A stretch of 50,023 nucleotides of DNA from an uncultured Blautia sp. (GTDB lineage Bacteria; Bacillota; Clostridia; Lachnospirales; Lachnospiraceae): NCBI GenBank assembly GCA_944380235.1, contig CALWHD010000137.1, forward strand, positions 1 through 50,023, in the 5' to 3' direction. How positions within the stretch are numbered: the first letter of the stretch is position 1; each line of letters begins with the position of its first letter. The translations under genes were made by a program, and so were the position numbers. The notes under the pieces were generated by a model. That model did not search any database and was not told the DNA's origin. It worked only from the letters and a program-made list of their open reading frames with translations. Of the stretch, positions 34,015 to 38,928 are shown one piece after another.

Positions 34015-34206
34015 GTTTTTCAACTCCTTTGTATGTAAGATATTTATCTGGCATGACTGTACACTATACATCAATGCCGCTGTTAGGAAATAATATACAT
34101 GATTTTAGTAAGGAATGCAAGTAAAATCCGGGGAAAGAAGGTTGTCACGAAAGGAAAAAATTGAACGGAAAAAGTCATTTTTGGGGTGTCGAAAAACGCA
34201 AAAGTG

Positions 34207-34215
34207 TGTTATACT
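34207..34215 (+). promoter_or_regulatory. Extended -10 promoter of the surface-protein gene
   Basis: TG followed by one base and TATACT (34207-34215) forms an extended -10 element. No strong -35 is seen at 17 bp. Initiation near 34222 would exclude the upstream GTG at 34186 as a start codon. Confidence 0.45.
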
Positions 34216-34290
34216 TACCCCGAATGGGTAACCATATCCATGACGAAGACTGTAAAGCATGTTTGTTTAGAAGGGAATGTCTTAATAGAA

Positions 34291-36753
34291 ATGAATAGAA
34301 ATAAAAAATTATTACATAAAGTAACTGCAAATGTTCTGGGAATCACTCTGGCTTCGGCTATGGCGGCAGGAGGTGTTCAAATAGCGGCTCCTGTCTCTGT
34401 GTATGCGGCGCAGGAGACAGTTTCTCTGACCAATATATATCTGGACGGCACAGCTGCAAAAGGAGACGGAAGCAGTAAGGAGAGTCCGGTAAACTCCTTT
34501 GGAAGTGCGGTAAGTCTTGCAGGTCAGAACAGTATCATTTATGTATGCGGTACTGTGACTATTAGTTCTGAACAGATTCTGAGCCTGCCTTCCGGAGTTC
34601 AGCTGAAGAGGGCGGATGGATTTCAGGGCGCTATTTTTAAAGTAACAGGTGACGGAAAACTGACAGTTAGCGGAAACTGGATCAGCGCTTCGGATATAGA
34701 TACTTCTTCAGCAAAGCTTGGCAGCGGCGCCTTTGTCTCAGGCACCCAGGAAAAGACAGACGAGGACAAGGAAACAGAAGATAAGAAAGACCAGCCAGGC
34801 AGCTCGCAGGAAGAAAGCAAATCAGAAGAGACACAGACAGCAGGTACGGAGGAGAAGACAGAAGAACAGACGGAACAGCAGCCGGAAAAAACAGAGGAAC
34901 CTGCACCGTCTGAGGGTGAAAAGCCTGCAGATGAGGATGACATCCAGGAGACAGAGAAAGATTCTGAGGGTCAGGAAGAAACCGTACCGGCAGAAGGCAC
35001 GGGACAGGCAGAATCTGAAGGGGAGTCCGGGACAGAAAATGGAGAGCAAAATACCGGGGAGCAGACAGATTCCGGCAATGATGGGAACAAGCAGGAAAAT
35101 ACAGATACGAAAACGGATACCGAAGAGGAGAATCCGGATAATACAGAAACAGATACGAAATCTGAAGAAGAAGCAGGAGATGCCGCAGGAGAAGAGGATA
35201 CAATAACATCTGGGGAAGATCAGAAGAAAGAGGATCCAACAGGTTCCTCCGATGAGAAGGAAGAAAGTACAGAAGACAAAGCATCTCAGGAGACCGGAGA
35301 CAAGGAAGTAACGAAGCCGGAAGGAGGCAGCAAGGAGGATACCGAGGCAGAGAACGGATCAGAAACAGAGAAGGATAATGCACAGACAGATAAAGAGGAT
35401 ACAGAATCCGTCAAAGATGACAGTGAAGCAGATAAGGAAACCGACGGCACAGAGAATGAAGAAAACAAAGAAACAGCAGAGGATGCCGAAAATACAGCGG
35501 GCGCTGAAGATACAGAAAAATCTGATGAGCAAGGAGCGGAAACGGAGGAAAGCAGCAATGCGGATTCTGATGGCGCAGCAGATGAAGATAAGGACAGCGT
35601 AGCAGAAGAGAAAGACCAGGAAAAAGAGAACAGTGCTGCTTCTGCAGAGACTGAAAAGGAAGCAAGCTCAGAAGAGAAGCCTTCTCAGGAAACCGGCAGC
35701 CAGGAAGAGGCAGAATCCAAAGAGGAACAGGAGGAAGATGCCGAAGCGGAAACTGGTACCAAAACAGATCAAGAGAATGAAGAAGCCGGAAAAGAAGACA
35801 CAAAGACAGACGCAGAAGAAGATCAGACTTCAGAAGGTGATGATGCGGCCGATCAGGAGAAAACCAGTGAAAATGCAGAGGAGGAGCTTCCGGAAGCAAC
35901 TCCGGGCAAGACAGGTGATGTGGCAGAGGAAGTACCGGAAGCTATTCCTGTGGGAAGCCTGTTCGATGAGGCAAGTCAGGTGCAGGTTTACGGGGATTTC
36001 CTTCCGTTCTATGTTGATTTGCAGGTGACATGGAATGAAGCGGTGAATGAGCTTCCCGATGCAGGAATCGGCGAGATTCTTTCTGCGTATGAGTTAAAAC
36101 TGTGGGATTTAAAGGAGGATAAAGAATACCAGATTCCAGAGGGAAAGAAAGTAACTGTAATGATTCCTCTGCCGGAAAATGCAGGAGAATTTTCCGATCT
36201 GGCAGTTGCCCACTATCTCGGGAATAACAGCTATGAATATTTTTCCTTTTCCCATGATGGCAAAACAGGGAACATGACTGTGGAGGAAAGGAACGGAAGA
36301 GAATATCTGGTATTTGAAACAGCTTCTTTCAGTCCTTTTAATGTAGGAGGTCTTCAGCTTGTCGGACCGGGAGCTTCACTGACGGACAATACACAGACAG
36401 ATAATGCCCAGCAGGGCACAGCGCCTCAGCAGAGCGAAACATCAGGAACGAATTCCAACAGCACAGCAGGAACCGTCAATTCTGCTGTTCCTCCGAAGAA
36501 TACCGGAACTACAGGAGCCGGCAGTACAAGTAACACAACTGCAGGAAGTACCAGCGTCAGTTCAGCTGTATCCGCCAAAGGAGGAACTTCCGCCCAAAGG
36601 AATGTGACAGTAACCCGTGCTGTAAAGACAGGAGATGAGATGCATGTTCTTCCTTATCTTGCAGCTGCCGCAGCCGCAGCTGCGGTCGGAGCCGGTGCGG
36701 TTTTGACGGGAAAGAAAAGAAGGCAGACAGCAGACAATCCAGAGCAGGAATAA
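34291..36753 (+). CDS. Large acidic secreted/surface protein with low-complexity stalk
   Basis: An 820-residue exported protein. A signal peptide covers about residues 1-40 (MNRNKKLLHKVTANVLGIT, then AAPVSVYA). A short domain (about 41-150) with TNIYLDGTAAKGDGSS and IIYVCGTVTI looks like a parallel beta-helix start. Residues of about 157-547 are almost only Glu, Asp, Thr, Lys, Ser and Gly. A folded domain follows (about 567-690, YELKLWDLKEDKEYQIP to SFSPFNVGG), then a Thr/Ser/Asn linker. The end reads VKTGDEMH, an Ala-rich membrane helix and KKRR, a sortase-like anchor without canonical LPxTG. ATG 34291 is chosen because it directly heads the signal peptide; its ribosome site is weak. Confidence 0.78.
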   Translation: MNRNKKLLHKVTANVLGITLASAMAAGGVQIAAPVSVYAAQETVSLTNIYLDGTAAKGDGSSKESPVNSFGSAVSLAGQNSIIYVCGTVTISSEQILSLPSGVQLKRADGFQGAIFKVTGDGKLTVSGNWISASDIDTSSAKLGSGAFVSGTQEKTDEDKETEDKKDQPGSSQEESKSEETQTAGTEEKTEEQTEQQPEKTEEPAPSEGEKPADEDDIQETEKDSEGQEETVPAEGTGQAESEGESGTENGEQNTGEQTDSGNDGNKQENTDTKTDTEEENPDNTETDTKSEEEAGDAAGEEDTITSGEDQKKEDPTGSSDEKEESTEDKASQETGDKEVTKPEGGSKEDTEAENGSETEKDNAQTDKEDTESVKDDSEADKETDGTENEENKETAEDAENTAGAEDTEKSDEQGAETEESSNADSDGAADEDKDSVAEEKDQEKENSAASAETEKEASSEEKPSQETGSQEEAESKEEQEEDAEAETGTKTDQENEEAGKEDTKTDAEEDQTSEGDDAADQEKTSENAEEELPEATPGKTGDVAEEVPEAIPVGSLFDEASQVQVYGDFLPFYVDLQVTWNEAVNELPDAGIGEILSAYELKLWDLKEDKEYQIPEGKKVTVMIPLPENAGEFSDLAVAHYLGNNSYEYFSFSHDGKTGNMTVEERNGREYLVFETASFSPFNVGGLQLVGPGASLTDNTQTDNAQQGTAPQQSETSGTNSNSTAGTVNSAVPPKNTGTTGAGSTSNTTAGSTSVSSAVSAKGGTSAQRNVTVTRAVKTGDEMHVLPYLAAAAAAAAVGAGAVLTGKKRRQTADNPEQE

Positions 36754-36759
36754 TGAGAG

Positions 36760-36797
36760 AGACTCTTTCATATGATACATATGGGAGGGTCTTTTTT
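36760..36797 (+). terminator. Terminator of the surface-protein gene, overlapping the next ribosome binding site
   Basis: A 15-bp stem (36760-36774 with 36778-36792, several G-U pairs, loop ATA) is followed directly by a six-T tract that ends at the ATG of the next gene. The GGGAGGG ribosome binding site of that gene is in the 3' arm of the stem. Confidence 0.8.
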
Positions 36798-37172
36798 ATG
36801 GAACAGACAATATCCAGAGGAACAAAACCTTTACAGATGATAAAAGCTCTTTTTCTTGCTTATGCAGTGACGGCAGTACTGCTTCTGATGCTTGCTTTTC
36901 TTCTCTATAAAATGGAACTGGGAGAGAGCCAGGTGAACCTGGGAATTATGGTGATCTACATAGTATCCTGCCTTGCAGGGGGGTTTTACATGGGAAGGAA
37001 AGGAAAAATGCGCCGTTTTCTCTGGGGCATGGGAATTGGCGCAGGATATGCTGTTTTTCTGCAGGCGGTTACAATGCTGACGGAGAGACAGGGGACAATG
37101 GATATAAAAGAAGCGGCAATGACCTTCTTTCTCTGTATTCTTGGCGGTGGTCTTGGCGGAATGCTTTCCTGA
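36798..37172 (+). CDS. TIGR04086-like small membrane protein
   Basis: A 124-residue protein with four hydrophobic segments (about 14-36, 45-63, 71-93, 105-124) and the glycine-rich end CILGGGLGGMLS. Size, topology and position just before a SCIFF gene match the clostridial TIGR04086 membrane family as I recall it. ATG 36798 has GGGAGGG eight bases upstream. The function is unknown; the conserved position suggests a role near secretion or SCIFF. Confidence 0.75.
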   Translation: MEQTISRGTKPLQMIKALFLAYAVTAVLLLMLAFLLYKMELGESQVNLGIMVIYIVSCLAGGFYMGRKGKMRRFLWGMGIGAGYAVFLQAVTMLTERQGTMDIKEAAMTFFLCILGGGLGGMLS

Positions 37173-37191: not shown

Positions 37192-37220
37192 TTGCCTGGC
37201 GGTTGCACCTATGCTATAAT
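37192..37220 (+). promoter_or_regulatory. Candidate promoter of the SCIFF gene
   Basis: TTGCCT (37192-37197) and a perfect TATAAT (37215-37220) are 17 bp apart, about 40 bp upstream of the SCIFF ATG. Confidence 0.7.
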
Positions 37221-37261: not shown

Positions 37262-37401
37262 ATGGAACATATCAAAACATTAAATACAAAAAGCTTACAG
37301 AACACAGTGAAAAAGGCGGCTGCGGCGAATGTCAGACATCCTGCCAGTCCGCATGCAAGACTTCCTGCACAGTAGGAAATCAGAGCTGTGAACACAAATA
37401 A
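37262..37401 (+). pseudogene. scfA: SCIFF ranthipeptide precursor gene, interrupted by a -1 base frameshift
   Basis: AGGAGG precedes ATG 37262 by eight bases, and the frame begins MEHIKTLNTKSLQNTVKK, the normal SCIFF leader. At the A5 run 37310-37314 the frame is lost: the ATG frame goes on as a cysteine-free tail to TAG 37373-37375. The frame one base off encodes GGCGECQTSCQSACKTSC and the rest of the six-cysteine core, to TAA at 37399-37401. One more A (A6) would give a normal 46-residue SCIFF. Possible causes: an assembly error in a homopolymer, a real mutation, or recoding (-1 slip on AAA AAG). The core frame itself has no nearby start codon. The maturase gene next door is intact. Confidence 0.85.
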
Positions 37402-37492
37402 TCATAAGTTTTATAAGGAAACGTTTTGAATCATGACAGGGGGAGTCAGATGCATCTGCTTTTCCCGAGATTAAGGTGAAACGTTGGTGAAA

Positions 37493-37521
37493 GCAGCGGT
37501 ATCAAAGCCGCTGCTTCTTTT
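37493..37521 (+). terminator. Partial terminator between the SCIFF peptide and its maturase
   Basis: GCAGCGG (37493-37499) pairs with CCGCTGC (37508-37514), followed by TTCTTTT. It would limit read-through and keep the peptide in excess of the enzyme. Confidence 0.7.
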
Positions 37522-37566: not shown

Positions 37567-38928
37567 GTGATTCATCGTTATAAAAATAATGGATACAACA
37601 TCGTACTGGACGTGAACAGCGGTTCCGTACATGTTGTGGATGAGCTGGTATATGATGCCATCGGACTTCTGGACGAGGGCAAGGATAATACCCAGATCGC
37701 AGAAGAACTGAAAGGTACCTATAAAGAAGAAGATATCCAGACAGCGCTTCAGGAGATCCAGGAATTAAAGGACCAGGATATGCTTTTTACAGAGGATATC
37801 TACCGCAATGCCATAGAACACTTTAAGGAAAGGCAGACTGTAGTGAAAGCACTCTGCCTGCATATTGCCCATGACTGTAACCTTGCCTGCCGTTACTGCT
37901 TTGCAGAAGAGGGAGAGTATCACGGCCGCAGGGCACTGATGACCTATGAAGTAGGGAAACAGGCACTGGATTTTCTGATCGCCAATTCCGGGAACAGAAA
38001 AAATCTGGAAGTGGACTTTTTCGGAGGGGAACCTCTGATGAATTGGAAGGTAATAAAAGATCTGGTGGCTTACGGAAGGGAACAGGAAAAACTTCATCAG
38101 AAGAAGTTCCGGTTTACTCTGACTACCAATGGTGTTCTCCTGGATGATGAGGTGATGGAGTTTGCCAACAGAGAAATGGATAATGTGGTTTTGAGTATTG
38201 ACGGAAGAAAAGAAGTTCATGATTTTATGCGTCCTTTCAGAAAAGGTGCGGGAAGTTATGATCTGGTGGTTCCGAAATTCCTGAAATTTGCTGAGAGCAG
38301 GGGAGAAAAGAGTTACTATGCAAGAGGAACATTTACCCGCCATAATCTTGATTTCTCCAAAGACGTACTTCACCTTGCAGATTTGGGATTTGACCAGATT
38401 TCCGTGGAACCTGTAGTGGCGGACGAAAAAGAAGAGTACGCACTGCGCTGGGAAGATGTGCCCAAGATCTGTGAAGAATATGATACACTGGCAAAAGAAA
38501 TGATCAAAAGGAGAAAAGAAGGAAAAGGCTTTAATTTCTTCCATTTCATGATCGATCTCACAGGCGGTCCCTGTGTATATAAGAGGCTTTCCGGCTGCGG
38601 TTCCGGAACTGAGTATCTTGCAGTGACGCCCTGGGGAGACCTGTATCCCTGCCATCAGTTTGTAGGAGAAGAAAAATTCCTCATGGGAAATGTATGGGAC
38701 GGGGTGAAACGCACAGATATCTGCGAAAATTTCAAGGAATGCAATGTCTACGCAAAAGAAAAATGCCAGAATTGCTTTGCTAAATTTTACTGCAGCGGCG
38801 GATGCGCGGCTAACTCTTACAATTTCCACGGCTCTATCAATGATGTTTATGATCTGGGCTGTGAACTTCAGAGAAAGCGGGTAGAATGTGCGATCATGCT
38901 GAAAGCGGCGGAAGCAGCAGAAGCATAA
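37567..38928 (+). CDS. scfB: SCIFF radical SAM/SPASM thioether maturase
   Basis: A 453-residue enzyme that installs sulfur-to-carbon thioether crosslinks in the SCIFF peptide. Residues 1-80 look like the PqqD-like peptide recognition domain. C104, C108 and C111 (CNLACRYC) bind the radical SAM cluster, and FFGGEPLMNW is the SAM block. The C-terminal SPASM region has many cysteines (GCGSGTEYLAV, LYPCHQF, EKCQNCFAKFYCSGGC) for two auxiliary clusters. The start is GTG 37567 with GGGGAA upstream. All key cysteines are present, so the enzyme appears functional although its substrate gene is out of frame. Confidence 0.93.
   Translation: MIHRYKNNGYNIVLDVNSGSVHVVDELVYDAIGLLDEGKDNTQIAEELKGTYKEEDIQTALQEIQELKDQDMLFTEDIYRNAIEHFKERQTVVKALCLHIAHDCNLACRYCFAEEGEYHGRRALMTYEVGKQALDFLIANSGNRKNLEVDFFGGEPLMNWKVIKDLVAYGREQEKLHQKKFRFTLTTNGVLLDDEVMEFANREMDNVVLSIDGRKEVHDFMRPFRKGAGSYDLVVPKFLKFAESRGEKSYYARGTFTRHNLDFSKDVLHLADLGFDQISVEPVVADEKEEYALRWEDVPKICEEYDTLAKEMIKRRKEGKGFNFFHFMIDLTGGPCVYKRLSGCGSGTEYLAVTPWGDLYPCHQFVGEEKFLMGNVWDGVKRTDICENFKECNVYAKEKCQNCFAKFYCSGGCAANSYNFHGSINDVYDLGCELQRKRVECAIMLKAAEAAEA

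Follow-up and report, generated by a model that had tools for sequence, protein, structure and literature searches.

The short peptide gene at positions 37262 to 37401 of the DNA analysed here is a known SCIFF (ranthipeptide) gene that carries a one-base break, and a new way of reading genes is not supported. As assembled it is a broken SCIFF gene; the break is absent from the relatives examined, and the gene shows no decay. We regard it as very probable that a single base was lost, either by an assembly error or by a very recent mutation. An ordinary SCIFF gene next to its maturase gene scfB would have lost one base within a short A run, and this loss would be both lone and very young, being either an error in the consensus or a null mutation that arose recently in the strain sampled. 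Should the cell really lack the base, a cysteine-free peptide of 37 residues would be made and ScfB would be left without its SCIFF substrate; it appears that no programmed mechanism rescues the break.

The window, by which we mean the whole stretch of 50,023 nucleotides, is an entire contig from an assembly of 2.72 Mb in 205 contigs that is 82.7% complete. The assembly looks fragmentary and MAG-like, and the host is taken to be a Blautia-like gut Lachnospiraceae. Below, G000 denotes this genome itself and G016 the genome that is nearest to it by the SCIFF region. According to profile matches, the locus comprises a TIGR04086 membrane protein (36753–37172), the SCIFF gene, scfB, SecDF and RecJ, with the following elements:

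37192 to 37220, plus strand: promoter-like site TTGCCT-17-TATAAT with TG ahead of the -10 box, from a promoter scan and the genus alignment
37262 to 37375, plus strand: SCIFF leader frame, consisting of 18 normal leader residues, 19 out-of-frame residues and a stop
37310 to 37314, plus strand: run of five A, the frame break point, with a one-base alignment gap against 19 of 19 same-genus genomes
37315 to 37401, plus strand: six-cysteine SCIFF core, one base back in frame, identical in amino acids to G016
37321 to 37353, plus strand: weak hairpin of TGCGG (37321–37325) and CCGCA (37349–37353), −9.4 kcal/mol for 33 nt, identical in the intact G016
37491 to 37516, plus strand: hairpin of 10 pairs with a loop of 6 and CTTTTC after it, lying between SCIFF gene and scfB and resembling a terminator by eye
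37567 to 38928, plus strand: scfB, intact gene for the SCIFF radical SAM/SPASM maturase, with a GTG start (TIGR03974)

The frame that opens with the ATG at 37262 encodes the leader MEHIKTLNTKSLQNTVKK and continues as AAAANVRHPASPHARLPAQ up to the stop at 37373–37375, while the core GGCGECQTSCQSACKTSCTVGNQSCEHK lies one base back relative to the leader frame and ends at the stop at 37399–37401. Leader and core thus occupy two different reading frames in the assembly, and translation places the break at AAAAA 37310–37314, which confirms both the frame conflict and the run of five A that the original prediction had described. The SCIFF profile TIGR03973 matches the core frame only, over profile positions 5–43 and with 70–71 bits against a cut-off of 50, and no NCBIfam model matched the 37-residue product of the leader frame at an E-value of 0.001. 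An alternative upstream start for the core frame was considered as well, and none of those present provides a leader; this frame contains no stop between a TTG at 37141 and the core, and the open stretch from there encodes no SCIFF leader. No second SCIFF match was found in G000, an assembly that is only 82.7% complete. The maturase gene beside the peptide gene is indeed intact, as had been claimed, scoring 813 bits on TIGR03974 against a cut-off of 425. Compared with known SCIFF/ScfB systems, the locus is alike in core sequence, gene order, maturase and the neighbouring TIGR04086 and SecDF genes, and both core and adjacent maturase score above their cut-offs; the difference is that leader and core lie in separate frames instead of a single one, which is the case in none of the relatives examined.

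A profile search with TIGR03973 gave matches in 103 of 116 genomes, the own genome included, and none in the other 13. In all 102 other matching genomes SCIFF is encoded in a single open frame, with the match starting at profile position 1–3; one of them (G018) has in addition a second, incomplete match where a contig ends. The gene is intact in 19 of 19 genomes of the same genus, including the nearest one, G016, and in the alignment each of these is one base longer at this site. In a separate collection, an in-frame SCIFF gene was present at 77 of 80 scfB loci; the remaining three (L034, L036 and L069), in which regular expressions detected no such gene, extend less than 170 bases upstream of the scfB match. 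These locus sets (116-genome search, separate collection, same genus) overlap, and some genomes are counted more than once. A survey of the family gave SCIFF matches in 365 of 397 genomes, again including the own genome, part of the matches being judged by their best E-values alone. Eleven weak scorers, six from the family survey and five from the 116-genome search, were rechecked individually and all had one open frame. Two of the six family genomes, G381 and G393, score below the broken gene of the window, and in G393 the gene is cut at a contig end. The break thus recurred neither in the 116-genome search nor in the family survey, where individual rechecking covered the 11 weak scorers, and the site had no match in the viral contigs scanned. 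The two codons preceding the core read AAAAAA in 68 of 120 distinct intact genes, AAGAAG, AAAAAG or AAGAAA in 39, and something else in 13; the count omits 12 of 140 loci that the search expression missed, namely L034, L036, L069 and nine of the 11 rechecked loci, in which the core wording differs from the expression and the profile matches show one open frame. According to the original prediction, a longer run in close relatives would point to a simple error, and the longer run is what these relatives carry, those sampled being sister species. In a few genomes of the family (G033, with C11 and C27, and G125, G177 and G191) two or three SCIFF matches occur, and in G033 both exceed the family cut-off.

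One of the options offered originally, that of a peptide gene that decayed while its enzyme was preserved, is contradicted by the state of the gene. Compared with G016, the SCIFF gene has four silent changes and one gap but not a single amino-acid change, and therefore it is not decayed; leader and core are otherwise unchanged, and both the -10 box and the GGAGG ribosome-binding region have been retained. The TATAAT box is common to 20 of 20 aligned genus sequences, although the promoter scan is weak on its own, with 2 sites per 500 bases against a shuffle mean of 1.0. The maturase gene is under strong purifying selection, to judge from a dN/dS of 0.029 versus G016 (which is only roughly known because dS is 1.17) and from its codon changes, 39 silent and 3 affecting amino acids on the branch of the window as compared to 26 and 5 on that of G016. 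An old pseudogene, with scfB retained for another substrate, would agree with this intact and selected maturase gene, but not with a peptide gene that apart from the gap has kept every amino acid. Furthermore, none of the 32 family genomes that lack a SCIFF match (20 named directly, 12 inferred by their absence from the match list; 26 of them with at least 90% completeness and no more than 5% contamination, six not) has an scfB above the TIGR03974 cut-off, so a long-lived state in which scfB persists without SCIFF was not seen in the family sample; among SCIFF-bearing genomes this profile test covered G000 only. The enzyme of the window itself passes TIGR03974 and scores below the cut-off of the 'not_ScfB' orphan family (594 versus 855). 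Old decay is thus the least probable of the readings considered here.

The most far-reaching option was recoding, in which the ribosome would slip by -1 on the AAG codon, with the stem downstream, and so produce full-length SCIFF, either as a programmed event or as a rescue. The arithmetic behind this proposal is correct, since a -1 step on AAG 37313–37315 leads to GGC GGC TGC and rejoins leader and core, which would preserve the leader-core sequence in the product. However, this exact product is no evidence for recoding, because any one-base loss in the Lys-Lys A run yields it. The site, G_AAA_AAG, contains the tetramer A_AAG, so the Z_ZZN pattern is present as a tetramer only and the X_XXZ_ZZN heptamer is absent. 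In the available part of a study with E. coli (PMC4066793), A_AA.G ranked first among the six best tetramers, which gave 0.26–5.6% frameshifting when combined with the IS3 pseudoknot, but without a stimulator Z_ZZN tetramers averaged 0.147% against a background of 0.112%, which is near background. The stem starts 5 nt past the motif, or 6 nt when counted to its first G-C pair, and lies within the distance of 4–10 nt used in the accessible text of the same work (PMC4066793). The stem and its spacing, as put forward in the original prediction, are therefore real, but its significance as a signal is not borne out: folding of three stretches against shuffles gave z values of −0.73, −1.03 and −1.25, which is near chance, and the stem is base for base the same in the intact G016, which needs no slip. 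If G-U pairs are allowed, 7 of the 19 intact genomes of the genus are able to form all five pairs of the stem. The structure is thus not specific for the broken site, and it looks like a by-product of the coding sequence and not like a signal that arrived with the break.

A Shine-Dalgarno-like stimulator was not seen by eye 6–17 nt upstream of the site, and the frame transition is conserved in none of the 102 other matching genomes and in none of the 19 of the genus. With dnaX and IS3-type -1 frameshifting at A_AAG, the site shares an AAG codon after A and a hairpin 5–6 nt downstream, and it differs by its G_AAA_AAG context, the missing Shine-Dalgarno-like sequence, the weak hairpin shared with intact relatives and the lack of conservation of the break. 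Rescue of frameshifted genes is known from insect endosymbionts, where, as stated in the available text of PMC5009743, slippage corrects 12–50% of the transcripts of such genes; that rescue uses long poly(A) runs, whereas the run here is five. Literature searches gave no paper on a SCIFF frameshift, as judged by titles and the beginnings of abstracts, and for programmed frameshifting in RiPP precursors only a fungal review turned up on the same basis. We consider a -1 slip, programmed or rescuing, very improbable. Still less probable is the special case that the species carries a true five-base run and makes SCIFF only via an adventitious -1 slip at A_AAG, aided by the pre-existing hairpin, as a rescue of a RiPP precursor.

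Assembly error, the remaining option of the original prediction, fits the data best together with very recent mutation, considering the lone break, the absence of decay and the intact relatives; the choice between these two is a matter of judgement. A frameshift screen of the own assembly, with reference ORFs of at least 120 residues, found no frameshifts in 90,025 testable of 477,145 bases (19%); as a control, it recovered 11 of the 17 deletions that had been planted. No frameshift was found either when the window was compared to six relatives (reference ORFs of at least 100 residues; no planted control). By these length thresholds the SCIFF gene itself falls outside both screens. The assembly is not error-ridden, and a high error rate was not seen with the limited power that 19% testable bases and 11 of 17 recovered deletions provide; an assembly error therefore draws no support from the error rate. 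Nevertheless, one base per 50 kb requires no high error rate, and this site was chosen because it looked odd. The gene resembles, with no difference seen, the singleton frameshifted genes of Antonov et al. 2013, which are evident from intact homologues and occur in one genome only, and in the available text of that paper such singletons, when validated by BLASTp, are expected to be sequencing errors and not genuine indels (PMC3711429). In our judgement, it is somewhat likely that the consensus of this fragmentary, MAG-like assembly has dropped the base.

A real, recent null mutation, in which the strain carries the five-base run and lacks SCIFF while ScfB is still made, is a serious possibility that we would nonetheless not expect to be borne out. 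Short A runs are ordinary indel sites, and the testable genes of the assembly contain no other frameshift. Of the 319 family genomes with a completeness of at least 90% and a contamination of no more than 5%, 26 gave no SCIFF match, which indicates that bacteria of this family tolerate losing the system. Evidence against a null mutation comes from the leader, core, -10 box and scfB, which show no decay, and from the fact that an scfB above the cut-off was kept by none of the 32 family genomes that lack SCIFF.

As it stands, the break matters little, pointing as it does to a probable base error in a single assembly or else to a null mutation private to it. If the shorter run is real in a thriving population, this would be a SCIFF-null strain of natural origin that still has an intact scfB, and it could help to test the function of SCIFF, for which a review table, in the part available, lists quorum sensing (PMC8326336).

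Some further features of the locus may be mentioned. In some pairs of close relatives, silent-site divergence of the SCIFF gene, calculated from only 26–27 silent sites, is far below that of scfB, with 0.17 versus 1.17 between the window and G016 and 0.12 versus 0.62 between G008 and G013, which suggests a constraint on codons or RNA, or local recombination. The hairpin at 37491–37516 was not reported by a terminator scan; it may lower the expression of scfB relative to that of the peptide. An ORF of 855 residues (34186–36753) encodes a long acidic stretch rich in Glu, Ser, Thr and Asp, a hydrophobic C-terminal part and then basic residues, and its product is probably a surface protein.
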